From Pseudomonadota bacterium (GTDB taxonomy: Bacteria > Bdellovibrionota > Bacteriovoracia > Bacteriovoracales > Bacteriovoracaceae): 64,000 nucleotides of DNA. The notes under the pieces were generated by a model. The model ran no database searches. It was not told where the DNA came from and was given only the letters and a program-made list of their open reading frames with translations. The stretch is taken from assembly GCA_027487515.1 (NCBI GenBank), contig JAIYDL010000019.1:1-64000 (forward strand), read 5' to 3'. The position numbers and the translations under genes were made by a program. Below are positions 33,304 to 54,217 of the stretch, in pieces. Each line of letters opens with the position of its first letter. Positions within the stretch are counted from its first letter, which is position 1.

Positions 33304-35280
33304 CTAACGCAAACTTGCAAGGCCCGCCAGATCTGAAAGCTTGATCGGCTTCGCGAGGTAATCGGTCATGCCGACCGCGAGGCAGCGCTCTCGATCTCCG
33401 GCCACGGCATGAGCGGTCATGGCGACGATGGGGATGTTCTTCCAGGGAGCAGAGGAGTTGCGGATTCTCGTCGTGGTTTCAAACCCATCCATCAGGGGCA
33501 TCTGACAATCCATCAAGACAAGCTCAAAGGCACCGCTTTCCAGCGCGGCGAGGGCCTCATGGCCAGTGCCCGCGAGTTTGGCGGAGTGGCCAAGTTTTTC
33601 GAGCATCCGCTGAGCGATGAGTTGATTGACGGCATTGTCTTCGACGACTAGCACCTGCTTGCGCTGGACCTTGGCATGGATTTCCTGAGGAAGATCCTTC
33701 TCCGGGGGAATGACTTCCGTGAGGGGGAGTTCAAACCAAAACGATGCCCCTCCGCCGGGAGCGGGCGTGAAGCCGATCTCTCCTCCCATGAGCGTCACGA
33801 GCTCGCGGCAGATCGAGAGCCCGAGCCCTGTTCCACCCACTTCGCGGGTGGCCGACGGATCGAGCTGACGGAAGGGAGTGAAGAGGAGGTGGGTGAATTC
33901 TTCGGGGATCCCCGGGCCCGTGTCCGTGATCGTAAATCGAACCGCTCCTGATCTCCCGGAGGCCTGGACTGTGATACTCCCGTGCGGAGTGAACTTGATC
34001 GCGTTGTTCAGCAGATTCAAGAAGATCTGCTTGATCCGGATCGGATCCCCATTTAGGTAGAGCGGGAGATCCTCAGCGTAGTGCTGATGGATGCTCAGAT
34101 TCTTTTTCTCCGCCGAGATCCGGAAGATCCCGCAGACTTCGCTCACGAGGCACCGGAGCTTAAAGGGCAGCGGTTGGATGGTGAGCTTCCTCTCCTCGAG
34201 CTTCGTGAAGTCGAGGATGTCGTTGACGATGGTGATGAGGTTCTCGCTCGACTGATTCAGGATGAGGGCGTACTCCCGCTGATCCTGCGTGAGCTCGGTT
34301 CCGAGGAGGAGGTTCGTCATGCCGACGACGCCGTTTAAGGGAGTCCGGAGTTCGTGAGACATGTTGGCCAAGAAGAGCGACTTCGCCTGGGCCGCTTCTC
34401 GCGCCTTTTGCTCCGAGAGCCGCAGGGCCGCTTCGGTCCGTTTCTTGGCCGAGATGTCTCTCGACGTGGTCACCCGGATCGGTTCGCCGTTGATGAAGAG
34501 AGTCTTCCCGACCGCTTCGACGTCGACCACTTCTCCCGATTTCTTCACCGCCCGGGCCTCGTAGATCCCATCGTGGGCCTGGGTGATTCTCTCGAGGGCA
34601 TCAGGCCGCGCCTCCGGGGGGAGGAGGACGAGTGCGTTCAACCCTCGGATCTCCTGAGGCCCGTAGCCGTAGAGGTCACAGAAGGCGGCGTTGGCCTCGA
34701 TCCCAATCCCATCCTTAGAGATCAGGATCGCATCGGAGGCGTTTTCAAACAGAGTTCGAAACTTCCGCTCGGAGACGGTGAGAAGATCTCGCACTTCGGT
34801 TTGCCCGATGGAGCTTTCGAGAACTCCGGCGATGAGCCGAAGGAGACCGATCTCCCGGTCATTAAAGTGCTCTGTCCGCTTGGAAATGACCTTCAAGACT
34901 CCGATGGTCGTCTCGTGGCCTGCAAGAGGTATGCAAATGACTGAACCGACGCCGGGAGTCTTCAGGACTTCAAGATCTAGTCGCGAGTCATTCTTGGCAT
35001 CTGGAGAATGGAGGACCTCCCGGCCTAGGATCGCCTGACCTGCGAAACAGCAGGCCAACTCGAGTCTGTCTCCAGGCCTATCGACGAGGCTTCCGGACTG
35101 CGCCCGAAAGACAACCTCCGTCTCTTCTCGGAGTCCAACCACAGCACCATCCGCCCCTGTGAGAAGGAGGATCCGGGAGCAGATCTCTTGCATCAGCTCG
35201 ATCTGCGGGCCTCGGAACTGCGCCACCTCTTGCTGAAGCTCAACGATCTGGGCGAGGTCATCGATCGAAAGTCTTTTCAT
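33304..35280 (-). CDS. Hybrid sensor histidine kinase (GAF-PAS-HisKA-HATPase-REC)
   Basis: About 658 aa from the Met before KRLSIDD (a start 13 codons upstream is possible). No membrane segment, so it is a soluble sensor. The order is GAF (about 30-160), PAS (about 175-275), HisKA with MSHELRTPLNG (phospho-His near 309), HATPase (GTGLGLSICREL), and a C-terminal receiver (VLVVEDNAVNQL..., phospho-Asp in MDCQMPLMDG). The ligand sensed by GAF/PAS is unknown. A divergent Hpt gene next door likely receives the phosphoryl group. Confidence 0.92.
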   Translation of the reverse strand: MKRLSIDDLAQIVELQQEVAQFRGPQIELMQEICSRILLLTGADGAVVGLREETEVVFRAQSGSLVDRPGDRLELACCFAGQAILGREVLHSPDAKNDSRLDLEVLKTPGVGSVICIPLAGHETTIGVLKVISKRTEHFNDREIGLLRLIAGVLESSIGQTEVRDLLTVSERKFRTLFENASDAILISKDGIGIEANAAFCDLYGYGPQEIRGLNALVLLPPEARPDALERITQAHDGIYEARAVKKSGEVVDVEAVGKTLFINGEPIRVTTSRDISAKKRTEAALRLSEQKAREAAQAKSLFLANMSHELRTPLNGVVGMTNLLLGTELTQDQREYALILNQSSENLITIVNDILDFTKLEERKLTIQPLPFKLRCLVSEVCGIFRISAEKKNLSIHQHYAEDLPLYLNGDPIRIKQIFLNLLNNAIKFTPHGSITVQASGRSGAVRFTITDTGPGIPEEFTHLLFTPFRQLDPSATREVGGTGLGLSICRELVTLMGGEIGFTPAPGGGASFWFELPLTEVIPPEKDLPQEIHAKVQRKQVLVVEDNAVNQLIAQRMLEKLGHSAKLAGTGHEALAALESGAFELVLMDCQMPLMDGFETTTRIRNSSAPWKNIPIVAMTAHAVAGDRERCLAVGMTDYLAKPIKLSDLAGLASLR

Positions 35281-41181: not shown

Positions 41182-41702
41182 GGCGAACTCCTCTGGAAAA
41201 TTAGCATGTTTCGATTCTGCCGCGTCGGAGGAGGAAACGCATTTGAAAAAGTTTCGACAGCGTCAGTGCCTGGCCTCTATGAGAAACGAAACAGGGTGCG
41301 GGTCCCAGCTAAGTTTTTTTCGCATCAAACCACACTGGGAGAAACTCAGCCTATATTTTTTTAAGATCAGAGGAGTAATTTCTTTCTTTTGGCAATTTGG
41401 ACACCTGAAAGAATAGACAAAATGCCGATGCAGGTTAGATAAGAGTTGAACACTGAAAAAATCTTTTGTTTTTGTGAAGAATTTGACTGCAACGCGCTTA
41501 AATAAGAGAAATCGAATTTAAACTTTCTTAAACGTTCTTCTGAGATCTTGCGGTTGCCTTGAAATTCTCGGTGCTCGTTCTTGATTTGTTATTTACACCA
41601 CTTTTACACCGATTTTACATCTGGTGATCTTTTCCCCCCTCTATAAAAAAAAATCTCATCCGTAAGATGACTTTGAGTTTCTGATTTTTACGGAGAATGT
41701 TC
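41182..41702. promoter_or_regulatory. 521-base control region upstream of the PYP/chemosensory operon
   Basis: A long AT-rich divergent gap between cfa and the light/chemosensory operon. Near the operon, three TTTACA boxes start at 41592, 41603 and 41614, exactly 11 bases apart, so on one face of the helix; a possible TATAAA -10 element lies at 41642. Such phasing suggests an activator or repeated regulator binding. A weak hairpin (CTGGG / CTCAG) plus T-run at 41335-41362 looks like a terminator of an unseen short transcript. No convincing gene was found inside. Confidence 0.5.
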
Positions 41703-42893
41703 ATGATCAAGTTTCTGACTGTGTGTTTCATTCTGTTTACCATCTCAGTGACCGCGACGACCCCGGTGGCAGATCCGCAGGGCCTCGCACCTCTCCGGAA
41801 GAATCTCCTCGAGCTTCAGAAACTTCTTCGGGAAAATCGAATCCGGTTCTCACCGCGCTTCGTGAACTGGGGAGAGCTCGTTCGCTTCCGAGAAAAAGTT
41901 TATTTCGTCACGGCCCACGATCCGACGGGAACGATCATCCCTAATACGCCGCAGGAGCTGCGCTCTGATGAACTCACGAAGGAGCTTAAGGCGGCTTGGC
42001 TCGATCTGGACCGAAGCCGGGAGCGGCTAGGTGTGGCGGAGTCCGACGAGGCCTGGCGAGCGCTCAAGACGCACGTGCATGAGATGCTCTTCCTCCGTGA
42101 GCGCTATCTGTACAATCAGTCTCGGAGGTTTCTGAAGTCCGGTGAGATCAGCGCCTCCCTCTCGGCGGCGGAAGCTCTTTTTTCCAACGCCTGGCTCGCC
42201 TCCGTACGGAATCCGGTTCTCGATGTCGCCGACCCGCTTCTGGCTCAGCTCGCAGGGGATCTGAACCTCCTTACGAAAACTGTTGAGCGCGAGCTTCACT
42301 CGTCTCGGGCCCCCGCCAGTTCGGAGGCGACGCTGAAGGAGTTCGCACCAGAAGTGGGGTTGGGTGCACTCTTACTTCTTGCCACCGGCTTCTTCACTGG
42401 GTTCCTGCTGGGCCGGCGAACCAAGCGCTCGCTCCTTCTTCCCGAGCGCGCTCCGGTGACCGCACCGCCGGAGGTCCAAGCTTCGGACTTCGCAGAACCC
42501 GTTCCATCCACCGATGGCATAAGTCCCCTGGCCTCATCGTTCGACTATGGCCCATGGGTTGAAGAGTTCGAATCTCTGTTATCAGAGAATAGAAAAGTCC
42601 GGGAGGCCCTCTCCGGCAAGTACCGACGCATGGATCTATGCCTCAATCACCTCCGTGAGTCACGGGTGGGTCTCATGATGGTCTCAGACTACGCGGGCTT
42701 TGAGCGCGAGGTGCGGAAGCTTAATCAGGCCGCTCCCGAGCTCGAGGAGTTTCTCGCCCACCTGCGGGAGCTGCACGACGCCGACCCGGCGTCGGCCATC
42801 GTCCGGCATGTGATCGCTCTCTGCGCCGCTCTCGAAGAGGGGCATCGGTTCGGTTCTCAACATAGCTTCGCTGAAGTTTCACGCGTTGCCTAA
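41703..42893 (+). CDS. Membrane protein, first gene of the PYP/chemosensory operon
   Basis: 396 aa; the ATG at 41703 lies 8 bases after ACGGAG (an ATG six bases earlier is too close). Signal peptide or first membrane segment about 1-20; a mostly helical periplasmic part to about 215; one membrane segment (GALLLLATGFFTGFLLG, about 219-236); then a cytoplasmic helical part of about 155 residues. No known domain is recognised. Topology is like a receptor, but no MCP signalling tip is present. As operon leader it may anchor or position the soluble light-sensing complex. Confidence 0.78.
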   Translation: MIKFLTVCFILFTISVTATTPVADPQGLAPLRKNLLELQKLLRENRIRFSPRFVNWGELVRFREKVYFVTAHDPTGTIIPNTPQELRSDELTKELKAAWLDLDRSRERLGVAESDEAWRALKTHVHEMLFLRERYLYNQSRRFLKSGEISASLSAAEALFSNAWLASVRNPVLDVADPLLAQLAGDLNLLTKTVERELHSSRAPASSEATLKEFAPEVGLGALLLLATGFFTGFLLGRRTKRSLLLPERAPVTAPPEVQASDFAEPVPSTDGISPLASSFDYGPWVEEFESLLSENRKVREALSGKYRRMDLCLNHLRESRVGLMMVSDYAGFEREVRKLNQAAPELEEFLAHLRELHDADPASAIVRHVIALCAALEEGHRFGSQHSFAEVSRVA

Positions 42894-42895
42894 AT

Positions 42896-42914
42896 GGTCC
42901 TCACGGTGAGGACC
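42896..42914 (+). repeat. Hairpin between operon leader gene and pyp
   Basis: Perfect inverted repeat GGTCCTC / GAGGACC around ACGGT, three bases after the stop codon and just before the very strong ribosome site TAAGGAGGT of pyp. It could be an mRNA-processing or stability element that raises pyp expression, or a partial terminator; there is no T-tract. Confidence 0.55.
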
Positions 42915-42941
42915 GATAAAAATACCTAAGGAGGTATGTAA

Positions 42942-43316
42942 ATGAGTTTCGTGACACCAGACATTCTATCCCGGCTTTCAAACCTCAACCGAAACGACGC
43001 CGACAACGCCACCTACGGCGTGGTCAAGGTCGACAACACCGGCAAGATCCTCCTCTACAATCGCTACGAGGCCGAGCTCGCTGGCATCATTCCGTCTTCT
43101 GCGGAGGGGAAGAACTTCTTCACGGAGATCGCTCCGTGCACCAACAACAAGCTCTTCTTTGGAAAGTTCAAGGCGGGGGTTGAGGCCGGCGAGCTCAACG
43201 CGGCCTTCAACTACACGTTCACGTACAAGATGAAGCCGACGAACGTTCAGATCCATCTCCTCCACGATAAGGGGAGCAAGACGAACTGGATCTTCGTACA
43301 GAAAAAAGCAGCGTAG
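42942..43316 (+). CDS. pyp: Photoactive yellow protein (PYP)
   Basis: 124 aa, the size of known PYPs. It aligns end to end with Halorhodospira PYP: the chromophore-bearing Cys69 is Cys66 in EIAPCTNN, Tyr42 is Tyr39 in LLYN, and Glu46 is Glu43; GKNFF, KFKAGVEAGELN and YTFTYKMKPT are also family features. PYP binds p-coumaric acid by a thioester on this Cys and undergoes a blue-light photocycle. Thr50 and Arg52 are replaced by Ala47 and Ile49, which should shift colour or kinetics. Its ribosome site is almost a perfect match to 16S rRNA. Neighbouring chromophore-synthesis genes strengthen the call. Confidence 0.93.
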   Translation: MSFVTPDILSRLSNLNRNDADNATYGVVKVDNTGKILLYNRYEAELAGIIPSSAEGKNFFTEIAPCTNNKLFFGKFKAGVEAGELNAAFNYTFTYKMKPTNVQIHLLHDKGSKTNWIFVQKKAA

Positions 43317-43326
43317 GGAGGGAGTT

Positions 43327-43716
43327 ATGTTTAACGGAAGAGAAACTGTGGATGGCCTTCGGGAGGCAATCACGAGCATGGAGTCCCAGCTCGTCGCCCT
43401 CTACGAAGAACGCCAGCTTCAGGTCAGCGACGGCGGTGAAGTGGCAGCACTTCAGGAGACTATTAAAAACCTCGAGGACCAGCTCGTGAGCCTTTACTCC
43501 GAGCGGGACTCCAATTCCCTCAACCGGTCTGAGGAAAACGAGATGATCGCGAGTCTCGAGGACCAGGTGAAGGCCCTGACCGATGAGAAGATGGAGCTCG
43601 AGGCACAGATCGACCGGGCGGTTCACGAGCGCCGCGAGATTCAGGCGCGGGCCCGGGATCTCGGGTCGGCCTTGTTTGAAGCTGCGGTCTTCGGAAAAAG
43701 CCGCGAAAGCGCCTAA
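43327..43716 (+). CDS. Coiled-coil protein of the light-chemosensory operon
   Basis: 129 aa, GGGAGGGAG before the ATG. Almost wholly helical and charged, with three related segments (MESQLVALYEER at 18-29, LEDQLVSLYSER at 49-60, LEDQVKALTDEK at 77-88). These look like coiled-coil repeats. No known family. The gene follows pyp by 10 bases, so it is a likely partner or adaptor that links PYP to the chemosensory proteins. This role is inferred only from position and shape. Confidence 0.75.
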   Translation: MFNGRETVDGLREAITSMESQLVALYEERQLQVSDGGEVAALQETIKNLEDQLVSLYSERDSNSLNRSEENEMIASLEDQVKALTDEKMELEAQIDRAVHERREIQARARDLGSALFEAAVFGKSRESA

Positions 43717-43722
43717 GGAGAA

Positions 43723-45168
43723 ATGGTTATGGACGGAACGAAAGCTTCATTGATCGTCGAAGAGCTCCGGAGCGAAAAAACGCTGGGACTCTTTAACCAG
43801 ATGACCAACGACCTCGAGGATCTCACGGCCGAGCAAAAAGGCGAGATCCGCGAGTTCTACGACGCTCGCGTCGCGGGTCTCGCCGAGTCACTCACTGACC
43901 TCACGATGGACGGTGATGACAGCGAGGCCCTGGCCGCGTTGCCGTCGATCTGGCTCGAGATGCGGCTGGAGTGGAACCGGTACAATAACCAAATGCAGTA
44001 CCAGACCTTTAACCGGGGGCAGGCGGACCCGTACCTCATGGCGATGGGTGCCTGCCTCTCTTACATCATCGGAGTCGTAGAAAACTTCATCAACTCCGAA
44101 GACCTCTTTTGGATCTACAAGATTGCGGCCGGACCGGTCGATGCGATCCGGAACCGGATGAAGCTCGGGCAGCGCTTCTTTGACCTGGTGGAGTCGTTTG
44201 ATGCGAGTTCACAAGGCACGCTCGAGATCCTGTTTCAAAACCGAGATGAGATCTATAACCTGGATAAAACAGTTCAGAAGAAGATGGACGATACCATCCT
44301 CAAGGTCGCCGAAGTCTACTCCGATAGTGTGTGGCTCGGGAGCACGGATCTGCATGAGAACATGCTCCTCTTGCTCACGCCGTGGCTCAAGAAATCGGCC
44401 CTCCGAGCGGTCCTGAACATCGGAGACTGCGCTCAGGACCTCCGGATCGCACCCGAGGTCGCCACGAGCTTCCGGCACATCGCTCAGTTTTGGATGGATA
44501 ATGTCTTCGCCGTCGAGGCGATGAGCGCGGAGAAAGAGCGGCTCGAGAAAGGCCGGAGTGCCCACTTGAACCTCAGCTGGGGTGTCGAGAAGCTCAAGGG
44601 CCGCCTCGTGTTCCGCTTCCAGGATGATTCGGACGCGGCCTTCCTGCCGGAGCTCGATCTCAAGCGCTACGCTCACCTTGGCGTCACCGTCACCCAGGAG
44701 CTCACCGCAGATAATCAGCGGGTCCTCACCATGAGATGCGACGAACGGAGCCTCCACGAGTTCCTCGTCGTCCGGCAGCGGCTGGGTGAGAAGGTGGGCC
44801 TCTTCGGCATCTCCACTAATCTCGTCTCCCGCGTAGAAAAGAATGTGTCTCTGGTCGAGCTCGACTCGAGTCGCCGGATGGTGCGATCGAAGTCTTTCGA
44901 AGAGCTCCCGGTGCTGAATCTCTCGAACAACGTGCTGGGGTTCGTGACCACAAAATCTCCCCGGAACTCCTACGTAGTGATCGACGACGGGCACTCCAAG
45001 CCCTTCGCGCTTGAGGTGGAGGATGTGATCGGGATCGTCCGCGGAGCGCTCAAGCCCTCCGTCGGCATGAAAGAAAGTAAGAGTAGCCTCGGCGTCGTCA
45101 TCGGCGGTGAGGATTTAATCAATATTCTGGACGTGGCAGCACTGCAGAAGGAAAAGAGATATGCTTAG
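43723..45168 (+). CDS. Pseudo-CheA: degenerate CheA-like protein with CheW-like C-terminus
   Basis: About 481 aa (an ATG two codons later at 43729 is equally possible after TAAGGAG). Residues 1-230 are helical and unrecognised, without a CheA phosphotransfer His. Residues about 245-335 align loosely with the CheA ATPase domain, but the N-box His and the DDGRG loop are lost (a DDSDA stretch remains). The last 140 residues fit a CheW-like/P5 regulatory domain (EFLVVRQRLGEKVGLFGI ... VVIGGEDLINILDVAAL). It may dock in the receptor array without kinase activity. It overlaps the lyase gene by 8 bases. Confidence 0.68.
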   Translation: MVMDGTKASLIVEELRSEKTLGLFNQMTNDLEDLTAEQKGEIREFYDARVAGLAESLTDLTMDGDDSEALAALPSIWLEMRLEWNRYNNQMQYQTFNRGQADPYLMAMGACLSYIIGVVENFINSEDLFWIYKIAAGPVDAIRNRMKLGQRFFDLVESFDASSQGTLEILFQNRDEIYNLDKTVQKKMDDTILKVAEVYSDSVWLGSTDLHENMLLLLTPWLKKSALRAVLNIGDCAQDLRIAPEVATSFRHIAQFWMDNVFAVEAMSAEKERLEKGRSAHLNLSWGVEKLKGRLVFRFQDDSDAAFLPELDLKRYAHLGVTVTQELTADNQRVLTMRCDERSLHEFLVVRQRLGEKVGLFGISTNLVSRVEKNVSLVELDSSRRMVRSKSFEELPVLNLSNNVLGFVTTKSPRNSYVVIDDGHSKPFALEVEDVIGIVRGALKPSVGMKESKSSLGVVIGGEDLINILDVAALQKEKRYA

Positions 45169-46528
45169 CACGAGTCATCCGAGGAGTGCCCCTGTTCTCC
45201 AGGAGGAGTCTCCTTCATATAGCGATTTTCGAAACTGGGGAACGCAGGAGCGGTGGGTTCCCCCGGCCCTTGGCACGCGCCGAGTTTCAGACGCCTTCGA
45301 GCGGCTCCAGTTCCATCTGGGTTCTGACACGGCACCGGTTTACGGCATCCACACCGGTTTCGGTGCCGACGTCTCTGCCAGGGCCTCGGCCGATTGGCGG
45401 CTCCATCAGCATGATCTTCTGACGTACCTAACCGTCGGAGTTGGTGACGCCCTTCCACAGACCGTTGTCCGCCGGGCCCTGCGGCTTCAGGCCCATAAGA
45501 CTCAACTCGGCTATTCGGGAGTTCACCCGGAAACTTTCCGCCGTCTTGTTGCTCTCTCGAACCAACCTGTGCTCCCGCGGGTTCCGTGCTTCGGGAGCCT
45601 CGGTGCCAGCGGTGACCTCATTCCGATGGCCCATGCGGTGGCCCCGTTGTTCCCGGATCAGTCCCAGGTGAACGGACCCCGGGACGTCCTCTCTTTGGTG
45701 AACACCAATAGTATGATGGCAAGCTTTGGGATCGAACTCCTCGAGCTCATCCGTCAGGTCGTTGATCGCGCGATTGATCAGATCGCCCGGGCGAGCATTG
45801 CTCTGGGCTACCAAGAGAAGCACTTCGCTCCCCAAGGGATCAACCTCCCGGGCCAGTGCGACTTCGTCATGGAGGCGGGCGCACGTCTCACGGGTTCCAT
45901 TCGTCGACTCCGGCAGGAGGCAACTCTGGCGCGCCTCGAAGCTCCCCGAGAGGAGCAGGCCCGCTACTCTATCCGCTGCGCTCCCTTCGTTATCGGCGGC
46001 GCGCTCTGGTCACTGGCGCAGGCCCAGGAGCGCCTGGAAACAGAGGCGCGGCGGATCGCAGACAACCCCGTGATCCTCGATCACGAGATCTGGCACGGAG
46101 GACACTTTTACGCTCTCCCGATTGCCCAGGCCGCTGACCTCATGGCCGACGCTCTCTACCGGACCTGCGAGCTCCTCGACCGGGAGGTGCTTCTTCTCAT
46201 GTCTCCAGAAACGAATAATGATCTTCCAAGGAATCTCGAGGTCCCGGGGTTCTCCCACGTGAAGGGGATGCATCAGCTCATCTCCTCTCTCCTCCAATCT
46301 CTTCGGACTCACCAGCTGCCCTCGCGGCTCCTGAGTTTTTCTTGCGAGGGGAATAACCAGGACGTCGTTCCCTGTGGGATGGCGGCCCTCGTCTCGCTCC
46401 AGGACCAGCTGCGCGTTGGCACGAAACTCGTCGGCGCGGCGGAGTTTGTCATGAAGCGCGCCCTGGCGATCTATTCCGAAGAGCCACTGACCGATGAACA
46501 TAAACTCTCTCGCTGGACGGAGCACTAG
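45161..46528 (+). CDS. tal: Aromatic amino acid (tyrosine) ammonia-lyase
   Basis: 455 aa, start overlapping the previous stop. The MIO cofactor triad is A149-S150-G151 in GSLGASGDLIPMAH; catalytic Tyr61 is in VYGIHTGFG. QARYSIRCAPFVIG, ADNPVIL and NNQDVVPCGM complete the active site. At the selectivity pair the protein has Tyr89-Leu90, where tyrosine lyase has His-Leu, phenylalanine lyase Phe-Leu and histidine lyase Ser-His. So it is not HutH and should make p-coumaric (or cinnamic) acid. The neighbouring pyp and CoA ligase point to tyrosine. It is shorter than most homologues (about 500-520). Confidence 0.88.
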   Translation: MLSTSHPRSAPVLQEESPSYSDFRNWGTQERWVPPALGTRRVSDAFERLQFHLGSDTAPVYGIHTGFGADVSARASADWRLHQHDLLTYLTVGVGDALPQTVVRRALRLQAHKTQLGYSGVHPETFRRLVALSNQPVLPRVPCFGSLGASGDLIPMAHAVAPLFPDQSQVNGPRDVLSLVNTNSMMASFGIELLELIRQVVDRAIDQIARASIALGYQEKHFAPQGINLPGQCDFVMEAGARLTGSIRRLRQEATLARLEAPREEQARYSIRCAPFVIGGALWSLAQAQERLETEARRIADNPVILDHEIWHGGHFYALPIAQAADLMADALYRTCELLDREVLLLMSPETNNDLPRNLEVPGFSHVKGMHQLISSLLQSLRTHQLPSRLLSFSCEGNNQDVVPCGMAALVSLQDQLRVGTKLVGAAEFVMKRALAIYSEEPLTDEHKLSRWTEH

Positions 46529-47845
46529 ATGACGGCCCTCGCCCGTGAACTCAAACTACGGCTTCAGTCCGCCGACCACCATCCGGTCATCGGCTGGTGC
46601 GGTGTGAGCGGCGATCTCGAAGCAGTTCTCTCTGGTCCGAATCTTTGGGTCCTGGGCCTCGAGCGCCTGAGGGAGCTTCGAGAGCAGGGCCTTCGCCCAG
46701 GAGATTTTGTCCATGCCGCCCCAGAGGGACAGGAGTTTCTCGTGCATCTGATCGCGGCGGCCATCGGAGGATTCGTTCTCATTCCTGACTCCGAGGAGTC
46801 CCACCATCGCATCGTCGCCAATCCCTTGCGGCAGAGATTTTTCCGGAAGGACATTGTCCTGGGTCTACTCACCAGCGGTACGAGTGGTCCGGCGAAGCGC
46901 GTCTTCTACAGCTCGGACGGGATCCTTTGGCAGCTTAAAAATCATGCGGCGTGGTTCGGCCACGGCAGTGGGCCCACAAGACTTTGCCTCCTCCCGTGGA
47001 CCCACTCTTTTGGTCTCGTCCTCGACCTGCTCCTGGGCCTCTTCGAAGGATCAACTCTTCTTTGTCCGGCGGAAGCTCGCTTCAAACAGTCGCGCAGCTG
47101 GCTCATGGCAGTCCTCCGCCAACATTCCATCGATCTTATTGCGGCCGTTCCTCGGCAGCTCGAATTCCTGCTCTTCGAGGAGGCCCTCTCGCTCCCTCCC
47201 AAGACCCTGTACACTGGGGGCGCCGCAGTTTCACCGGATCTGCGTCGGCGCGCGGAGGCGTGGATCGGGGAGCGGGGTCGCCTGGTGGAGGGCTATGGGC
47301 TCACGGAAGCGGGCCCGGGTGTGGCACTTAACGGATGGCCTTTGGGGTGTGAGGTGCGAGTTGGGGATCAAGAGATTCAGGTCCGTTCCCCATACTGGGG
47401 TCTCGATGAAGCCCTCGAGGCTTCGACGGATTGGGTAGCGACCGGCGACCTCGGGACCATCGACTCCAAGGGGCAGCTGCAGGTAGTGGGAAGAAAATCA
47501 CGGAGAGTGAAGGCCAGCACCGGTGAGTGGCTCTCACTGGACGAGGTCGAAGAGGCCCTGCTGGCGACCGCTCCACTCCGGGCCGCGCACATTGCGTTTG
47601 ACTCTGAGGGGCCCACACTCTGGCTTCTCCCATCCGGAGGTCCTGTGGGAGAAGCGGCGATCGCAGGAGTTGTTGAGCGGATAGGCAAGCGCCTCGGCGC
47701 TCCTGTGCGGTCCCATGTGTTAGTTCCCGACGAGGCGCTCCTGCGGCGCCTCGGACACGCGAAGGGCAAGGACTTGCGACAATTTTTTCTCTCCGAGACA
47801 GAAGGGAAGGAACGCGCTGTGGAAGCGCAAGCTTTTAGAAAATAA
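46529..47845 (+). CDS. pcl: p-Coumarate:CoA ligase-like enzyme (AMP-binding)
   Basis: 438 aa, ATG directly after the lyase stop codon. ANL-superfamily motifs: LLTSGTSGPAKRV (AMP-binding P-loop), YTGGAAVSPDLRRRAEAW, VEGYGLTEAG, ATGDLGTIDSKGQLQVVGRKSRRVKA and a final Lys in HAKGKDLR. It should activate the hydroxycinnamic acid to its CoA thioester for attachment to the PYP cysteine. The shorter length agrees with dedicated PYP ligases, which lack some of the 4CL insertions. A general fatty-acid ligase cannot be excluded by sequence alone, but context argues for PYP maturation. Confidence 0.85.
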   Translation: MTALARELKLRLQSADHHPVIGWCGVSGDLEAVLSGPNLWVLGLERLRELREQGLRPGDFVHAAPEGQEFLVHLIAAAIGGFVLIPDSEESHHRIVANPLRQRFFRKDIVLGLLTSGTSGPAKRVFYSSDGILWQLKNHAAWFGHGSGPTRLCLLPWTHSFGLVLDLLLGLFEGSTLLCPAEARFKQSRSWLMAVLRQHSIDLIAAVPRQLEFLLFEEALSLPPKTLYTGGAAVSPDLRRRAEAWIGERGRLVEGYGLTEAGPGVALNGWPLGCEVRVGDQEIQVRSPYWGLDEALEASTDWVATGDLGTIDSKGQLQVVGRKSRRVKASTGEWLSLDEVEEALLATAPLRAAHIAFDSEGPTLWLLPSGGPVGEAAIAGVVERIGKRLGAPVRSHVLVPDEALLRRLGHAKGKDLRQFFLSETEGKERAVEAQAFRK

Positions 47846-47884
47846 CGGAACATACTTACGGCATTGAATAAGGAAGGAGAAGAC

Positions 47885-49849
47885 ATGAAAAAGTTAGAAG
47901 TCCCGGAAAGAAACGAACGGCCCGCCTACGCACCGAAGCGCCAGGGCCTTGAGGTGATTCGCGGGGAACCCACTCCTCGACCGATGGCATCCCCCAATGA
48001 CTCCGATCAAGGCCTTGACGGGGGAAGTAAAATGAATGAGCGCAAGAAATGGGTTAAGCAGCAGGCCGCGGAGCGGCTGAACCTCCTCACGGAAGACCTC
48101 TCTCTTTCGGCGGCGGCGATCTCTGACTCTGCCGAAGCGCTGAAGGATTCGATGCATGAGGTGAACGATCAATCCGACATCGTCCGAGGTCTGGTGGATA
48201 AGTCTCTGCGCGTGGGTGACCTCGTCTTAGCAAACTCTCAGGAATTGACCGAACACTCCCAAACCGCCCTGGACAAGGCGAACCAACTCCAGGTTCGAAT
48301 TCAAGACGCCCTCCGGGGCATCAGCGGCTGGAGCCACTCGGTGGAAGAGTCGGGCCAGGTGTGTCTGATCACCAGTCAACTCGTGACCGAGCTGCAGCAG
48401 TCGTCCAAAGAGATCAGTTCGGTGATCACCGCGGTCGCCGACATCGCGGAGCAAACAAACCTTCTCGCACTCAACGCGGCCATCGAGGCCGCTCGCGCAG
48501 GCAACGAAGGCCTCGGGTTCGCCGTGGTCGCGGATGAGGTCCGGAACCTGGCAGAAGTGGCAGAAAAAAGTGCGCGGCTTGTGACCGAAACCATCAGCTC
48601 CATCCACCAGCAGGTGGAGTCGATCATGGCGCTCTCGAACACCGGCGCTGAGGCGGCCCGGGAGGACATCGAAAACGTCAAGGACGTGTTGAAGAATCTC
48701 TCGGACATCTCCCAGAAAATGCGCGAAATTTCCCTCGGCGCAGGGGAGATGGCCAAGAACACGCAGAACGTTTCGGCGGGGGCCGAGGCGTTTAAAGATC
48801 GCATCGACTCGGTGGCGTCCGCGACGGCGACCACGTCCTCGTCCGGCGCCGAGGCGCTGGCGAGCTGTGAAGAGCAGTTCATCGCCATGACCGACATCCT
48901 CGAGGCCTCCCGGCACCTTTCGGAGCGCTCTCGGCGCCACATCTCCAGCTCCAATTCCAGTGACCTCGATGGCCTCGTCTCTGCCTCCCAGCAGCTCACG
49001 GCCACGGTGCAGGAAACGAATGCCTCGGCCCACGAGGTTGCCAGTGCCATCGCGCAGATCGCCGAAGGCGCGAACCTTCAGGCGGAGCAGTCGAAGAGCT
49101 CTTACACCATGATCCAGGAAGCGATGACGAAGATCAACGGGATCTTGGTTGACTCCGAATCCTTCAAGCACGGGGGGGCGTCGATCGAGGAGACCTTCGG
49201 TCGAATCACGGCGGTGGTCGACAAGATCAAGACGAGCCTGGATGCCACGTCGCACTCCGCGGAGACGGCCGAGAAGAGTGCCAGTGACCTTCGCTCCCAG
49301 GTTGGAAAGATCCAGAAACTCGTCCGCTCGATCCGGGAGAATGCCCTCATGACGAACATGCTCTCCGTGAGCGGTGGCGTCGAGGCGGCCCGGGCGAACG
49401 AATCTGGAAAGGGCTTTGCAGTCGTGGCCACGGACATCCGCTCCCTCGCGTCTGACACTTCGGCGAACTCAGATCTCATCGAGGAGCTCCTCGATAAGAT
49501 CTACGAGAAGACAATCCTGGTTCAGAACTACATCGGCCGCGTCCGGACCTCGGCGCAGAAGGACGCGCGCTCAGCGCTAGATTCGATCTCGCAGATGGAG
49601 TCCCTCCGGGAGTTCGCGCACTCGTTTACCCTCCTGGCCGGCAAGATGGTGGAGCAAGGCAACGAGTCGATTGCGTCTTGCAAGGATGGCGAACTGATCC
49701 TCGAGGAAGTCAGCAAAGCGGCCGGCATCATCTCCGGGGCCGCCCGGAACGCCGCAGAGATCGCTAAGAAACAGTCGAAGGCCACCCAGGAGCTCGCACT
49801 CCACGTCGAGCAAGTGGGATCAATGGTCAAAGAATTTGGGCTCATGTGA
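47885..49849 (+). CDS. Soluble methyl-accepting chemotaxis protein with two signalling tips
   Basis: 654 aa, AAGGAG before the ATG. There is no membrane segment and no recognised sensor domain. Residues 1-60 are Pro/Lys-rich and flexible; the rest is a long coiled coil. A canonical MCP hairpin tip occurs near residue 188 ([18 protein letters not shown], then [14 protein letters not shown]). About 297 residues later a second, altered tip occurs near 485 ([18 protein letters not shown], then [15 protein letters not shown]). Two tips in one chain are unusual. A cytoplasmic array fed by PYP and the coiled-coil protein is a plausible setting. Confidence 0.85.
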
Positions 49850-49857
49850 GGTAGAAA

Positions 49858-50742
49858 ATGAAAGTCATCATCTTCAAGGCCGGAAGCGTCCGGATCGCGG
49901 TCGATCTAAAAGATGTCCGCGAAGTTTTAAAGCGAGAAACCGGACTGCCGGGCGGGGAGGCGATCGAGGCGATCCGCGGGAAATTCGTCCGCATCTGTGA
50001 TGCGGCCCGGATCCTCGACAACTCGACCAGTGAAGAGCACATCAGTAAGACCATCGTCCTCGAACTCAATAACCGAGTCATCGGACTTGCGACCCCGAGT
50101 GTCAGCCGGATCTACGATGTGAACCCGGAAACGATTCAACCCATCGGAGACTTGTCGAAGTCCCATGTCCCCCCGTTCTGCACCGGAGTCGTGACCATTC
50201 AGGATTTTTCGTCCCCCGTATATCTCCTGGGGATGGCGGCGCTCATCGAGCACTCGGGTGAAGAGGGGGAGGTCGATGCGACGGCGGGGCTGAGCTCCGG
50301 CACGGCCATCGGTAAGTCGCGGGTCGTGTGTTTCAAGCTCGGTGGCTGTGAGTACGCGTTCACGATTGATGAGACGGTGGAGATCATCCGCGGCCGTGCG
50401 GCCCAGTTCGTTCCCCACTCCCGGGAGGTCGTCGAGGGCGTGATCAATCTGCGCGGAGTGGTGCTTCCCGTGGTTGATCTTCGGCGCTTGGCGGGCGTCG
50501 AGAACGATGCCTCACCTCGGGATCGGACGAAGATTGTCGTCGTCACGATTCAAGGCCAGCAGATCGGTTTCCGCGTTGATCTCATGACGGAGGTGACACC
50601 CTTCCAGGAGAGCCAGCTTCGTTCGGTTCCAGATTCCTTCGCGGCCCTCGGGAAGTACTGGATCAAATCGATCCTTAAAGTCACGGAGTCCCGGGTTGTG
50701 TTTGTCATCAACTCTGACTGGTTCGTTCACCATGCGGCATGA
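49858..50742 (+). CDS. Tandem CheW protein
   Basis: 294 aa; GAGG lies 8 bases before the ATG. Two CheW domains are visible: residues about 1-135 (divergent) and 150-290 (typical, with KLGGCEYAFTIDETVEIIRG and GVINLRGVVLPVVDLRRL). CheW couples MCP and CheA. Two copies per chain may reflect the two-tip MCP. The 3' end overlaps the CheB start by 11 bases. Confidence 0.85.
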   Translation: MKVIIFKAGSVRIAVDLKDVREVLKRETGLPGGEAIEAIRGKFVRICDAARILDNSTSEEHISKTIVLELNNRVIGLATPSVSRIYDVNPETIQPIGDLSKSHVPPFCTGVVTIQDFSSPVYLLGMAALIEHSGEEGEVDATAGLSSGTAIGKSRVVCFKLGGCEYAFTIDETVEIIRGRAAQFVPHSREVVEGVINLRGVVLPVVDLRRLAGVENDASPRDRTKIVVVTIQGQQIGFRVDLMTEVTPFQESQLRSVPDSFAALGKYWIKSILKVTESRVVFVINSDWFVHHAA

Positions 50743-51661
50743 CCTCACCGACGTCGGGATCATCGATTCTTCTGCGATCAACCGCCAAAAGCTGGAGGAC
50801 CTTCTCTTGAAGCATGGCTTCAGGGCCGCGGTCCGGGCCCGGGGCCTTGAGGACTTTCGTCAGAAGCCTGGACACGAGGCCATCCGCCATCTTTTAGTCT
50901 CTCGGGAGTTTCTCCGCGAGGGCGGAGCTCTCCCCTCGGGGGTCAAGGTCATTTCTCCCGATCTCGGCGGCCAGTTTGATCTGTTCGAGGGTGCCCTCGA
51001 GGCGTTTGTTTTTGGGCAAATCCCCGACCTGTGGGAGAAGCTTCCGCGCTCACTCCGCTGCTCGCGGCGGCCCATGGTTTTCCTGGGGTCGAGCACGGGA
51101 GGTCCGGCAGCGCTCGAGCTCATTACGCCGAAGCTCGAGCTTTCGCGCTCGTGCTACTACGTCTGCGCACAACACATGCCCATGGGCCAGACGAAAGGCC
51201 TCGTCGAGCATCTCGTCCGACTCGGTGTTCGCGCAGAAGAGGTCTCTCACGGGAAAACCTTGGTCCCGGGCGTCTTCTACGTTCTCCCCTCCGGGTCTCA
51301 GGCGTTCGCAGGGTTGCGGTCGACCGGCGAAGTCGCGTTCTACCTGACCTCCGAACTCGTGGGGCCCCTCCATGCTCCGCTCATCGACCTCGCGCTGTTC
51401 TCCGTTGCTCAGATCTTTCAAGATAACCTTGTGGCAGGAATTCTTACGGGGATGGGGACCGACGGCGCCCTGGGCCTCTTGCACGGGCGTCGCCGTGGGG
51501 GCCTGACCTTTGCCCAGTCCCAGGCCTCGAGTTTGGTCTACGGCATGCCGAAGGCCGCACTCGAAACCGGAAAAGCACAAGAGCTCATCGATCTCACCGA
51601 TGTCGCGAGGTACCTCAACAGTTGGACCACCAACTACGGGCGAGGGTCTCATGTGGGATAG
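50732..51661 (+). CDS. cheB: CheB-type protein-glutamate methylesterase (degenerate receiver)
   Basis: 309 aa. C-terminal esterase: Ser in GSSTGGPAAL (121), His in AQHMPMG (148) and Asp in GMGTDGALGLL, all present. The N-terminal 100 residues have receiver-like strands (IIDSSAINRQKLEDLLLKHGF) but no phospho-acceptor Asp where DVVxLD should be. So esterase control by phosphorylation is probably lost. It removes methyl groups from the MCP. Overlaps tandem cheW and cheR. Confidence 0.85.
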   Translation: MRHDLTDVGIIDSSAINRQKLEDLLLKHGFRAAVRARGLEDFRQKPGHEAIRHLLVSREFLREGGALPSGVKVISPDLGGQFDLFEGALEAFVFGQIPDLWEKLPRSLRCSRRPMVFLGSSTGGPAALELITPKLELSRSCYYVCAQHMPMGQTKGLVEHLVRLGVRAEEVSHGKTLVPGVFYVLPSGSQAFAGLRSTGEVAFYLTSELVGPLHAPLIDLALFSVAQIFQDNLVAGILTGMGTDGALGLLHGRRRGGLTFAQSQASSLVYGMPKAALETGKAQELIDLTDVARYLNSWTTNYGRGSHVG

Positions 51662-52475
51662 GCAAGCGTGTCGGGACCTGAGTGCCCTGATCGAAGAAAA
51701 CTACGGCATTCACTGCGACGAGAAGAAGGTCCAGAGCAATGTCCTCTCTCTCGAGGGGCACCAGCGCGCGGCCGGATTTAGGACCGACCGTGAATTCCTC
51801 ACGTACCTGCGGGTCAAGCCGCAGTCTCGGGAACTCCAGACCATCGCGGAACTCTTCTTGATCCATGAGACCTACTTTTTCCGAGAGTTCCGGCAGCTGC
51901 AGTTTTTCGCCGAGGAGCTACTTCCGAAGATCATCGAAACCAAGATCCGAGAGAAGGACTATTTCTTTCACCTCTGGTCCGCGGCCTGCTCTACCGGAGA
52001 AGAGGCCTACACGCTTGGGATCATTTTGAATGAGATGATCGACCGACGCCAGATCCCGTCGGTCCGGATCACGGCGACGGACCTGGACCGGGAATCCATC
52101 GACTTCGCACGGAAGGGAGTCTACTCAGGACGGGCGCTGAAAGATCTCCCGCCGGTCTACCTGCGCTCCTATTTTAAAGAGACGGAAGCGGGGAAGCAGA
52201 AGGTGAACATCCAGCTCCAGGGGCTCTGTGATTTTTCCGTGGGAAATCTTCTTCTCCCACCCAAAGAGCCCAATAAGTTCGACGTCGTGTTCTGCCGGAA
52301 TGTCTTGATCTACTTCGCGCCCGACATCAAGCAGAAGATTCTAGAGAACATACACCGGGCACTGAGGCCCGGAGGTGTTCTGTTGATCGGGTCCACGGAT
52401 TCGATCGCGAAACTCACGGTACCGTTTCAAGCTGTTTCTCGGTTGGGCATGACGTACTATCAGAAAATTGGCTAA
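51651..52475 (+). CDS. cheR: CheR methyltransferase
   Basis: 274 aa, ATG overlapping the cheB stop by 11 bases. It carries a SAM site (FHLWSAACSTGEEAYTLGI), ATDLDRESIDFARKGVY and CRNVLIYF, standard CheR features. It methylates Glu residues on the MCP for adaptation. No TPR extension. Confidence 0.93.
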   Translation: MWDRQACRDLSALIEENYGIHCDEKKVQSNVLSLEGHQRAAGFRTDREFLTYLRVKPQSRELQTIAELFLIHETYFFREFRQLQFFAEELLPKIIETKIREKDYFFHLWSAACSTGEEAYTLGIILNEMIDRRQIPSVRITATDLDRESIDFARKGVYSGRALKDLPPVYLRSYFKETEAGKQKVNIQLQGLCDFSVGNLLLPPKEPNKFDVVFCRNVLIYFAPDIKQKILENIHRALRPGGVLLIGSTDSIAKLTVPFQAVSRLGMTYYQKIG

Positions 52476-52487
52476 GCGGAGGGTTCC

Positions 52488-54191
52488 TTGAGCGACGACA
52501 TGAAAGAGATCTGCGAGCTCTTTTACCAGGAAGGTCTCGATCTTCTGGAACTCTCAGAAAAAAGCTTCCTCGAAATCCACAGCGGTGCGGACTCCCTCGC
52601 GCCGATCAATCAGGTTTTCCGAGTGGCGCACAACCTCAAGGGATCAGCGAACGCGGTGGGCCTCGAGGACATCGCTCGGTTCGCGCACTCCTTTGAGAAC
52701 GTGCTAGCAAAGTTTCGGGATAGGCCTGAGCTCGTGAACGAGGAACTGATCGCGCTGATGCTCGAGGCCAATGACTGCCTCAAAAGTCGCTTAACGGATC
52801 TCGTCCGCGGGGTCGAGGGACCTTGGACTGCACAGCTTCCCATTCAGGAGCGACTGGCCCAAACTGAAGCGGCGCTCGTGCAAAGAATGGGAAGCACCGG
52901 AGCTTCCAGCGCGGATCCGACGGACATCCCAGCGGAGGAGCATCCCGAGGCAGCGTGTTCCAACACCAGCGAAGCCCATGCTGTTCCTCCCACAGAGGCC
53001 GACCGGGGGAGTGTTTCTAGTTCCGCCGGGCGTGCTCCGGCAGCGGTGACCTTCAAGGTCAGTGCCGAACGGGTGGACAAGATTCAGCAGGTCGTGGGGG
53101 AACTCGCGCTCCTCCGAGGCCAGCTCGTTTCAAGCCTTTCAGATCCGCGGCAGTTTCAGTTGGTGCTCGGGCTCTTAGATAAGAACATCCGCGAACTCCA
53201 TGGCCGGGTTGTGGAAATGAAGAAGAGCCCTGCGGACGCACTCCAGCAGCGGCTCACCCGGTTAGTCCGGGACATGACGAGGAAACTCGGCAAAGACGTC
53301 AATCTCACTTGGGATTGCACGGCGGATGCGATCGAGAAGCCCATCCTCGATGCCATCACCGATCCCTTGATCCACATGGTCCGGAATTCGCTGGACCATG
53401 GGTTAGAGACGCCGGAGGAGCGCAGTTCAAAAAACAAACCGACCACGGGCCAGCTGACGGTGCGGATTGCGGTGGACCCGACGCTGGTTGAGGTCACCGT
53501 CCGAGACGACGGCCGGGGCGTCGATACGGCGCGAGTCCTGGCCCGGGCACGGAGCAAAGGTCTGGTCGGCATCGAGGCCGAAGCCTGGCCTCCGGAGAAG
53601 CTCATTGACCTTCTGTTTGCTCCGGGCTTCTCCACGGCCGAAGCTGTCACGGAGTTCTCCGGGAGGGGCGTTGGCCTTGACGTCGTCCGGAGTAACATTG
53701 AAAAGCTCGACGGTTCGGTCCGGATCTTGTCCCGGCTTCACTTCGGAACCGAGTTTCGGCTTGAGATTCCTCTCTTGAATGGGCTCTCAGAGGCGCTCCT
53801 CGTGCGTGACCGGAACCGCACCTACCTGGCAGGGATGAACGGCATCCTCCGCGTGACGAGCTTCGATCCCAAGCGGATCTCCGCCCCAGCACGGGATCTT
53901 CATCTTTACTTCGATGGTGACCAGTCCTACCGGATCGTTCCTCTCTCTAATGACCAGGGTGGTTTCACTCTTCCCACGCGAGGGGTGGGGATTCTGGTCC
54001 AGTCGGGGGAGAACTACTACTGCGTTCCGGTGGACCATGTCGGGGCCAAGGCCCAGTTTGTAGTGAGACCTCTTGCCCGCTGGATCTCAGAGTCCCCAGG
54101 GGTCATCGGAATGTCTATGGTTGAGGAGGGGATTCCGGTGCCGTTTCTTGACCTCCGGCGCTTGGTGACCGGAGGCAGTGCGAGCAAATAA
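52488..54191 (+). CDS. cheA: Chemotaxis histidine kinase CheA
   Basis: 567 aa, TTG start with GGAGGG five bases upstream; an ATG four codons in is the alternative. The P1 phospho-His is His48 in VAHNLKGSANAVG. A low-complexity linker (about 125-185) replaces a P2 domain. The dimerisation helices follow, then the ATPase: MVRNSLDHGLETPEER (N box), VRDDGRGVD (G1) and SGRGVGLDVVRSNIE (G2). The C-terminal P5 CheW-like domain ends the chain. All catalytic boxes are intact. No CheY is encoded in the operon. Confidence 0.93.
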   Translation: MSDDMKEICELFYQEGLDLLELSEKSFLEIHSGADSLAPINQVFRVAHNLKGSANAVGLEDIARFAHSFENVLAKFRDRPELVNEELIALMLEANDCLKSRLTDLVRGVEGPWTAQLPIQERLAQTEAALVQRMGSTGASSADPTDIPAEEHPEAACSNTSEAHAVPPTEADRGSVSSSAGRAPAAVTFKVSAERVDKIQQVVGELALLRGQLVSSLSDPRQFQLVLGLLDKNIRELHGRVVEMKKSPADALQQRLTRLVRDMTRKLGKDVNLTWDCTADAIEKPILDAITDPLIHMVRNSLDHGLETPEERSSKNKPTTGQLTVRIAVDPTLVEVTVRDDGRGVDTARVLARARSKGLVGIEAEAWPPEKLIDLLFAPGFSTAEAVTEFSGRGVGLDVVRSNIEKLDGSVRILSRLHFGTEFRLEIPLLNGLSEALLVRDRNRTYLAGMNGILRVTSFDPKRISAPARDLHLYFDGDQSYRIVPLSNDQGGFTLPTRGVGILVQSGENYYCVPVDHVGAKAQFVVRPLARWISESPGVIGMSMVEEGIPVPFLDLRRLVTGGSASK

Positions 54192-54217
54192 AAAAGGCCT
54201 CCCGAAGGAGGCCTTTT
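54190..54217. terminator. Strong intrinsic terminator ending the chemosensory operon
   Basis: GGCCTCC / GGAGGCC stem with a CGAA loop, flanked by an A-run and a T-run, so it can act in both directions. It lies directly after the cheA stop and before the convergent metalloprotease gene. Confidence 0.92.

Follow-up and report, generated by a model that had tools for sequence, protein, structure and literature searches.

Gene content of the locus

Photoactive yellow protein (PYP) is encoded within a run of 11 genes at positions 41703-54191 of a 64,000-nucleotide stretch of DNA (the window; positions 1 to 64,000 of contig JAIYDL010000019.1) from a Bacteriovoracaceae genome, assembly GCA_027487515.1. 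The run also encodes an aromatic amino acid lyase, a CoA ligase, a chemosensory core, a membrane protein, a coiled-coil-type protein and a CheA-derived protein, here called the pseudo-CheA, whose N-terminal domain is named NQM. With moderate confidence, the run is read as a blue-light input module that likely couples PYP to the chemosensory array through this dead CheA, on a mixed basis of sequence, structure model and inference.

The genes are co-directional on the + strand and tightly spaced (Table 1). Every gene named in an earlier note on this DNA is present, on that strand and in the order the note gave. With the starts as listed, the intergenic gaps are, in order, +48, +10, +6, -8, 0, +18, +8, -8, -14 and +12 nt. 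ATG starts at 50732 for CheB and 51651 for CheR bring each of two overlaps to 11 nt. These are the likelier starts, as are 47885 for the receptor and, for the membrane protein (an ATG at 41697 or 41703), 41703. A chance or artefactual origin of the gene run is rejected, because eight of the 11 genes recur as one run in a congener, G022 (Bacteriovoracaceae bacterium CE-Jul18-124), at 37-65% protein identity. The congener order is pseudo-CheA (55%), lyase (54%), ligase (41%), CheA (47%), receptor (65%), CheW-CheW (48%), CheB (37%) and CheR (52%), so that CheA lies upstream of the receptor there, whereas it is last in the window.

Table 1. Features of the PYP chemosensory run in the window.
Feature	Coordinates	Strand	Evidence
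Membrane protein, function unassigned	41703..42893	+	Hydropathy: N-terminal hydrophobic segment and a second at residues 220-238
PYP, 124 aa	42942..43316	+	Pfam PAS, solved-PYP alignment, NCBIfam
Coiled-coil-type protein with SLExQLxxLYxE repeats	43327..43716	+	Motif scan
Pseudo-CheA: NQM 1-145, P3-like helices, degenerate P4 ~201-342, CheW-like P5 ~342-475	43723..45168	+	Pfam, profile comparison, structure model, alignment
NQM domain, predicted helical	43723..44157	+	Profile search/comparison
Aromatic amino acid lyase, predicted tyrosine ammonia-lyase	45161..46528	+	Pfam Lyase_aromatic, ASG 149-151, Tyr89-Leu90
AMP-forming CoA ligase, predicted p-coumaroyl-CoA ligase	46529..47845	+	Pfam AMP-binding
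Double-tip chemoreceptor	47885..49849	+	Pfam MCPsignal x2, hydropathy; TTG alternative start 47864
Tandem CheW-CheW	49858..50742	+	Pfam CheW x2
CheB methylesterase	50732..51661	+	Pfam
CheR methyltransferase	51651..52475	+	Pfam
CheA, P1 His48, P4 and weak P5	52488..54191	+	Pfam, motif alignment
Terminator-like GC-rich hairpin, 11 pairs	54192..54217		Between CheA and convergent 54223-56523 gene

The earlier note had described the chemosensory core as complete and the terminator as single. The core genes are present, but the run lacks CheY; on the contig, receiver domains come no nearer than positions 33325 and 68449. A hairpin does follow CheA; the terminator rests on that one hairpin, and a scan counted 17 terminator-like sites where shuffled sequence gave 12.8 ± 3.0. 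The same scan found no sigma-70-like promoters, against 2.4 ± 1.7 in shuffles. The convergent gene beyond the hairpin encodes a product with a Met-zincin-type peptidase domain.

The membrane protein, in the frame starting at 41697 or 41703, has no Pfam or NCBIfam match. A homologue lies directly 5' of PYP at locus L025 (23.6% identity, 8e-8), and BLAST detected none in the remaining fetched PYP loci.

The PYP photoreceptor and its predicted chromophore supply

PYP of the window is a single PAS domain that aligns with solved PYPs over residues 2-121 (4.9e-29). Its Pfam match is PAS (6e-5), and the NCBIfam PYP model gives 126.6 bits (5.6e-37), under the model cut-off of 143.05. Y39, E43 and C66 correspond to Tyr42, Glu46 and Cys69 of H. 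halophila PYP, which means that the Cys of the chromophore thioester and the pocket residues are kept. Ala47 stands at the position of Thr50, and Ala is the family consensus there (PMC12826048). Binding of the p-coumaroyl chromophore and a blue-light photocycle are predicted.

The lyase is a member of the Pfam family Lyase_aromatic (1.7e-69) and has the Ala-Ser-Gly that forms the methylidene-imidazolone (MIO) group. Its Tyr89-Leu90 stands at the selectivity position, where histidine ammonia-lyase has Ser-His, and Tyr-Leu is common to nine of nine aligned lyases (window, L012, L025, L026, L028, L029, L031, L033 and L053). The His89-Leu90 of R. sphaeroides tyrosine ammonia-lyase presumably falls in the same column. 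Since the window residue is Tyr89 and the equivalence with His89 is presumed, the enzyme is named an aromatic amino acid lyase and predicted to be a tyrosine ammonia-lyase. His89 is important in the R. sphaeroides enzyme (PMC9002059, PMC4542537). The Tyr-Leu pair may reflect either an alternative mode of tyrosine binding or a different substrate. The ligase matches AMP-binding (2e-25), and its solved relatives include oxalyl-CoA, feruloyl-CoA and 4-coumarate ligases. Both enzymes belong to broad families suited to p-coumaroyl-CoA synthesis, which is their predicted role.

The shared Tyr-Leu, as opposed to the Ser-His of histidine ammonia-lyase, would suit a sensor that does not read light in practice, where the lyase supplies another acid or none and PYP responds to another cue. 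We regard this as very improbable. The chromophore-binding and proton-transfer residues are kept in the window PYP and 10 aligned relatives, and lyase and ligase genes accompany NQM in 9 of the 11 loci (window included) at which NQM is joined to a CheA-type protein.

The chemosensory array core

The receptor matches MCPsignal in two stretches (1.5e-50). Its two tips, whose motifs stand at 204 and 503 in the listed frame, are separated by ~300 residues; the first is canonical and the second has diverged. Hydropathy finds no transmembrane segment in it, and Pfam no sensory domain. The 294-aa CheW protein has two CheW stretches (1.2e-40), and CheB and CheR match their Pfam families at 2.5e-37 and 1.6e-51. 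CheA matches Hpt (5.5e-12) and HATPase_c (4.3e-15), and its CheW-type (P5) end reaches only 0.09. It has the P1 His48 and a P4 with N-box and ATP-lid motifs, and Pfam matches neither a P2 nor a receiver domain in it. The tandem signalling domains of the DosM/F9 class are present, but its triple CheW (CheW3) is not. Because the CheW domains number two, not three, the core is filed as F9-like and not as F9. The N-terminal region of CheB is receiver-sized and has no Pfam receiver match; a recognised receiver is found in the CheB of the operon on contig C9.

FliM is encoded in the genome, as are two further che operons, one on contig C9 and one on C23, and each of these includes a single gene for CheA, for CheW and for an MCP. 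A dCache sensor is clear in the receptor of C23, and in that of C9 the dCache match is under the cut-off; an additional MCP is encoded on contig C24. CheR and CheB are fused in one protein on C23 (L055), and CheR carries a receiver on C9 (L054).

The pseudo-CheA and the NQM domain

Pfam gives the pseudo-CheA a weak C-terminal CheW match (7.6e-4), under the cut-off. An AlphaFold2 model from 12 sequences (mean predicted local distance difference test score (pLDDT) 78, predicted template modelling score (pTM) 0.56) is composed of a helical N-terminal domain, two long helices, a P4-like domain and a P5-like domain, and its top structural matches are P4 and P5 of CheA. Kinase motifs were aligned for six pseudo-CheAs, the CheAs of the window run and the congener, two more CheAs from the window genome, and five hybrids, in which NQM is joined to an intact CheA. 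The GRGVGxD segment (ATP lid) and the N-box Asn are absent from all six pseudo-CheAs, and DDG is kept in four of them. None of the four pseudo-CheAs scanned with Pfam has an Hpt (P1) match. The P1 His, the N-box and the GRGVGxD boxes are retained in all five hybrids. Judged by its motifs, the pseudo-CheA is CheA-derived and is not a CheA, its set of P1, P3, P4 and P5 being incomplete. Since they lack P1, the N-box Asn and the GRGVGxD segment, the pseudo-CheAs should be unable to act as CheA-type kinases.

NQM, named in this analysis from an NNQMQYQ motif, is the first ~145 residues of the pseudo-CheA and has no Pfam or NCBIfam match. BLAST finds a resemblance between a portion of the pseudo-CheA N-terminus and a portion of the fused kinases, and the sequences locate NQM at the kinase C-terminus. 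The NQM of the pseudo-CheA set and that of the hybrid set match at a probability of 98.2 over 130 columns in an hhalign profile comparison run without an unrelated-domain control. Asp65, Glu68, Trp84, Asn88, Gln92, Tyr93, Ser113, Glu120 and Pro138 are invariant in ten sequences.

NQM was sought in 290 genomes of the phylum, a sample of a larger group; G022 is outside this sample. It occurs in ten, once each, and all ten encode PYP. The p value of this co-occurrence (6.7e-17) overstates independence, because linked genes are co-inherited and the profile was built from PYP-linked copies. Exclusive association of NQM with PYP holds in the 290 genomes and is broken outside the sample by a stand-alone 135-residue NQM protein in G022 (L011:5066-5473, E 3.3e-22). 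No PYP relative was found on the 6.5-kb contig that carries it. Its gene adjoins an N-acetyltransferase-family gene (PF00797) and an alpha/beta hydrolase gene. A six-frame scan of 57 fetched records, many of them overlapping, found no NQM beyond the loci already found, and the genus of G271 has it in 3 of 14 genomes, all known already. When genome contigs were scanned with the pseudo-CheA, the congener was the single locus retrieved, and protein searches for more NQM carriers returned 8, 7 and 9 proteins. In two proteins, P0007 (322 aa) and P0008 (316 aa), NQM is accompanied by a portion of the P4-like region without P5, a possible further arrangement.

Arrangement of PYP and NQM in relatives

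PYP matches occur in 12 of the 290 genomes. Two are atypical: the G282 match reaches 27% over 77 residues and lies within a frame of 774 residues, and the G033 match reaches 39%. The remaining ten come from the window genome and nine relatives. Surroundings were fetched for ten PYP relatives, all but G282. Four relatives have a separate light module without che genes in the fetched stretches. It is composed of membrane protein, PYP, coiled coil, lyase, ligase and pseudo-CheA in G139, and of pseudo-CheA, lyase, PYP, coiled coil and ligase in G256 and G262. In G198 it is split, with PYP and the coiled coil at one contig end and pseudo-CheA, lyase and ligase at another. A PAS-rich sensor histidine kinase gene stands after the ligase gene of the G256 module (L026:11665-13581).

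Five further relatives (G293, G271, G280, G163 and G250) have the fused form, in which a CheA-type kinase of 684-731 residues (as listed) is followed by a PYP with an N-terminal extension of ~85-115 residues. Here an intact CheA has a C-terminal NQM, and PYP has the coiled-coil motif. Lyase and ligase follow in three of the five (G293, G280 and G250). At all five hybrid loci (L029-L033), an open reading frame (ORF) of ~160-215 residues stands before CheA and one of ~164-174 residues after PYP (in L030, 7212-7718 and 10421-10942); Pfam gives no significant match for the four that were scanned, those of L029 and L030.

The coiled-coil protein of the window has sub-cut-off Pfam matches of coiled-coil kind, none of them significant. 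It is a separate protein in the window and four relatives, and its motif is fused to the PYP N-terminus in the five hybrid loci. The QLxxLY-type motif is found in 2-3 copies in each of the five separate proteins and in one copy in each of the five PYP extensions. Written as QL..[LMFI]Y, it occurs in 10 of 10 such proteins and nowhere in the remaining ORFs of these loci, which total 80,422 residues, a comparison in which the motif was picked after inspecting these proteins and the residues include non-gene ORFs. Where NQM sits on a pseudo-CheA, a separate protein carries the motif; where NQM sits on a live CheA, PYP carries it.

Conservation of the exact operon across relatives is rejected, as the ten sampled NQM genomes comprise one module with a che core (the window), four modules alone in the fetched stretches and five fused forms. 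The earlier note had proposed gene-order conservation as a check and had called the operon self-contained. The first holds in part: eight genes are kept together in G022, but their order is altered there, and the che core is missing beside four modules. The second was not borne out, given the missing CheY and the four light modules without che genes.

These same four modules, the changed order of the che core in the congener and the stand-alone NQM protein would fit two independent systems on one transcript, with the PYP module serving another output and the double-tip array having its own input. This is unlikely in our judgement, because NQM is joined to CheA-derived domains in the window and ten relatives, live in five and dead in six.

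The relatives also bear on whether PYP acts directly on the sensorless receptor, as proposed for the PYP-MCP neighbours of Leptospira by analogy with CetB-CetA, with the pseudo-CheA as structural filler. This would suit the window receptor, which has no detected sensory domain; PYPs of Leptospira adjoin sensorless chemoreceptors, and 12 MCP-PYP fusions have been published (PMC9664959, PMC12826048). The companions of PYP in the ten sampled NQM genomes, however, are NQM and the coiled-coil motif and not an MCP. MCP is absent from the fetched stretches at 9 of the 10 loci outside the window that join NQM to a CheA-type protein (all but G022), and not one MCP match was obtained in two of the genomes that have PYP and NQM. 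Direct action of PYP on the receptor is accordingly given a low probability.

Twelve genomes, all of which have FliM, were searched for CheW domains and MCPs. Both were found in six of six pseudo-CheA genomes and in three of five hybrid genomes. In G271 (92% complete) and G280 (90% complete), neither was found at E 0.001, and FliM is present. Incompleteness may be the cause, in which case it would have to hide every CheW and MCP gene in both genomes. The G271 hybrid has a receiver-domain gene and a CheX-type gene as neighbours, and the G163 hybrid has a receiver, an HD protein and CheX. In G280, a receiver and CheX are ~5.6 kb from PYP, beyond a transposase piece. No receiver, HD or CheX gene was found among the few downstream ORFs scanned in G293 and G250. 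The receiver and CheX neighbours fit a pathway from light to a CheY-type receiver without a receptor.

The G033 PYP (L034:9938-10297) is divergent, with 119 residues and the Cys, Glu and Tyr kept. None of the other light-module parts accompanies it within the 16 kb fetched. A CheR-type gene lies ~3 kb from it, and the genome has CheW matches and zero MCP matches.

Proposed route of the light signal

The proposal draws on the gene run, the PYP residues, the lost kinase motifs, the sampled co-occurrence of NQM and PYP and the two fused arrangements, all read from sequence, and on a P4-P5 likeness that comes from the model only. The lyase and ligase would make p-coumaroyl-CoA, and PYP would bind the chromophore. 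The coiled-coil protein would hold PYP, because both are one protein in the hybrids, and the light signal would go from PYP to NQM, because NQM accompanies PYP in both architectures. In the hybrids, NQM would act on the CheA of the same chain. In the window, the P5/CheW-like part of the dead CheA would dock at the receptor tips or CheW rings of the DosM-like array, as ParP does, and light would make the live CheA, whose gene closes the run, more or less active. Because the CheA fold of the module form is dead, its P5/CheW-like part would be the obvious route to a live CheA in trans. The output may be the flagellar motor or another; FliM is encoded in the genome, and CheY is missing from the run. 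The earlier note had placed the entry of light at the coiled-coil and pseudo-CheA proteins, and this idea is strengthened, as relatives of these proteins adjoin PYP elsewhere and their counterparts are fused to PYP and to intact CheA in five relatives.

A wider reading is held more tentatively and at somewhat less than an even chance. NQM may be a photoreceptor-coupling domain that gives CheA its own input. PYP would then drive live CheA directly in bacteria that have flagellar genes but no detectable receptor or CheW, and in the window the same input would have been transferred to a dead CheA that connects it to a DosM-like sandwich array.

Several points weigh against coupling of PYP to the array through the pseudo-CheA. 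Inheritance of one linked block would by itself give the co-occurrence of NQM and PYP, and NQM need not always serve PYP, because the stand-alone copy in G022 is away from it. The G022 contig begins 15 bases before the pseudo-CheA, just short of the expected place of PYP, and no PYP was found in the rest of that assembly (89% complete). The pseudo-CheA is found in only 2 of 26 genomes of the genus, its own included (E 1e-8). Location beside a window-type array is not general, because 4 of the 10 sampled NQM loci have no che genes in the fetched stretches. NQM is missing from G033, the genome with the distant PYP (39% identity), and the 16 kb fetched around that PYP contain neither a coiled-coil nor a lyase relative. 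The lyase has Tyr-Leu where we take tyrosine ammonia-lyase to have His-Leu, and its selectivity residues look unusual. The structure models were built on 12 and 10 sequences, with a pLDDT of 57-71 in the P3-like stretch, and docking of the pseudo-CheA through its P5-like part is suggested by fold alone.

Should the wider reading be true, light would be the first assigned stimulus for a DosM-like array. NQM is a candidate PYP partner domain that can be tested alone. The set also offers a natural contrast: NQM is carried by a live CheA in two genomes where neither receptors nor CheW were detected, and by a dead one next to an array. The NQM system could also serve optogenetics as a small coupler of light to CheA.

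Comparison with known systems

The relay of the PYP signal is described as a knowledge gap in the abstract of PMC12826048. PYP beside or fused to chemoreceptors is already known, as is a PYP-bearing kinase that binds CheW. Within the literature covered, with subscription papers and supplementary tables outside its scope, we found no PYP partner domain on a CheA or pseudo-CheA, no double-tip array with a light module and no CheA with PYP in genomes without detected receptors. Apart from the papers cited, none that treats PYP together with CheA, CheW or Bdellovibrio was noticed there. Some of the hybrids may be among the HATPase-type operons that PMC12826048 counts.

The PYPs of Leptospira and the MCP-PYP fusions are like the window in that PYP is gene-linked to a sensorless chemoreceptor (PMC9664959, PMC12826048). 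In those systems, PYP pairs with or is fused to the receptor, whereas in the window its companions are a coiled-coil-type protein and one derived from CheA, and the double-tip receptor has no detected transmembrane segment. Ppr of Rhodocista centenaria is a PYP-phytochrome-histidine kinase that binds CheW (PMC2993699), and it resembles the proposal in that a PYP-bearing protein reaches CheW/CheA through a kinase-type domain. In Ppr, a bilin domain and an autophosphorylating histidine kinase belong to a single fused protein, whereas the window has a CheA fold without P1 and the ATP lid.

The DosM/F9 class shares with the window a receptor with two signalling domains, mostly sensorless, and concatenated CheW (PMC7534058, PMC9321776). 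It has three CheW domains, whereas the window has two, a run without CheY and a light module within the run. Of the DosM homologues, 98% lack sensory domains, and arrays of this type are said to require further receptors or sensory proteins (PMC9321776). In the window, that role would fall to the pseudo-CheA and PYP.

ParP of Vibrio joins arrays at MCP tips and CheA and couples them to a pole anchor via ParC (PMC5706961). It has an N-terminal partner-binding region and a C-terminal domain nearer to CheA-P5 than to CheW, a layout that the pseudo-CheA would share. The pseudo-CheA differs in its degenerate P4 and its NQM domain, and its array binding is predicted from the fold. In a survey of CheA, an input domain is lacking, and P1, P3, P4 and P5 are found in all surveyed CheAs (PMC10782961). 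The P4-P5 fold is common to these and to the proteins described here, and the hybrids have P1, P4 and P5. The present proteins differ from those of the survey in the lack of P1 in the pseudo-CheA and, in the hybrids, in an additional domain linked to a photoreceptor.

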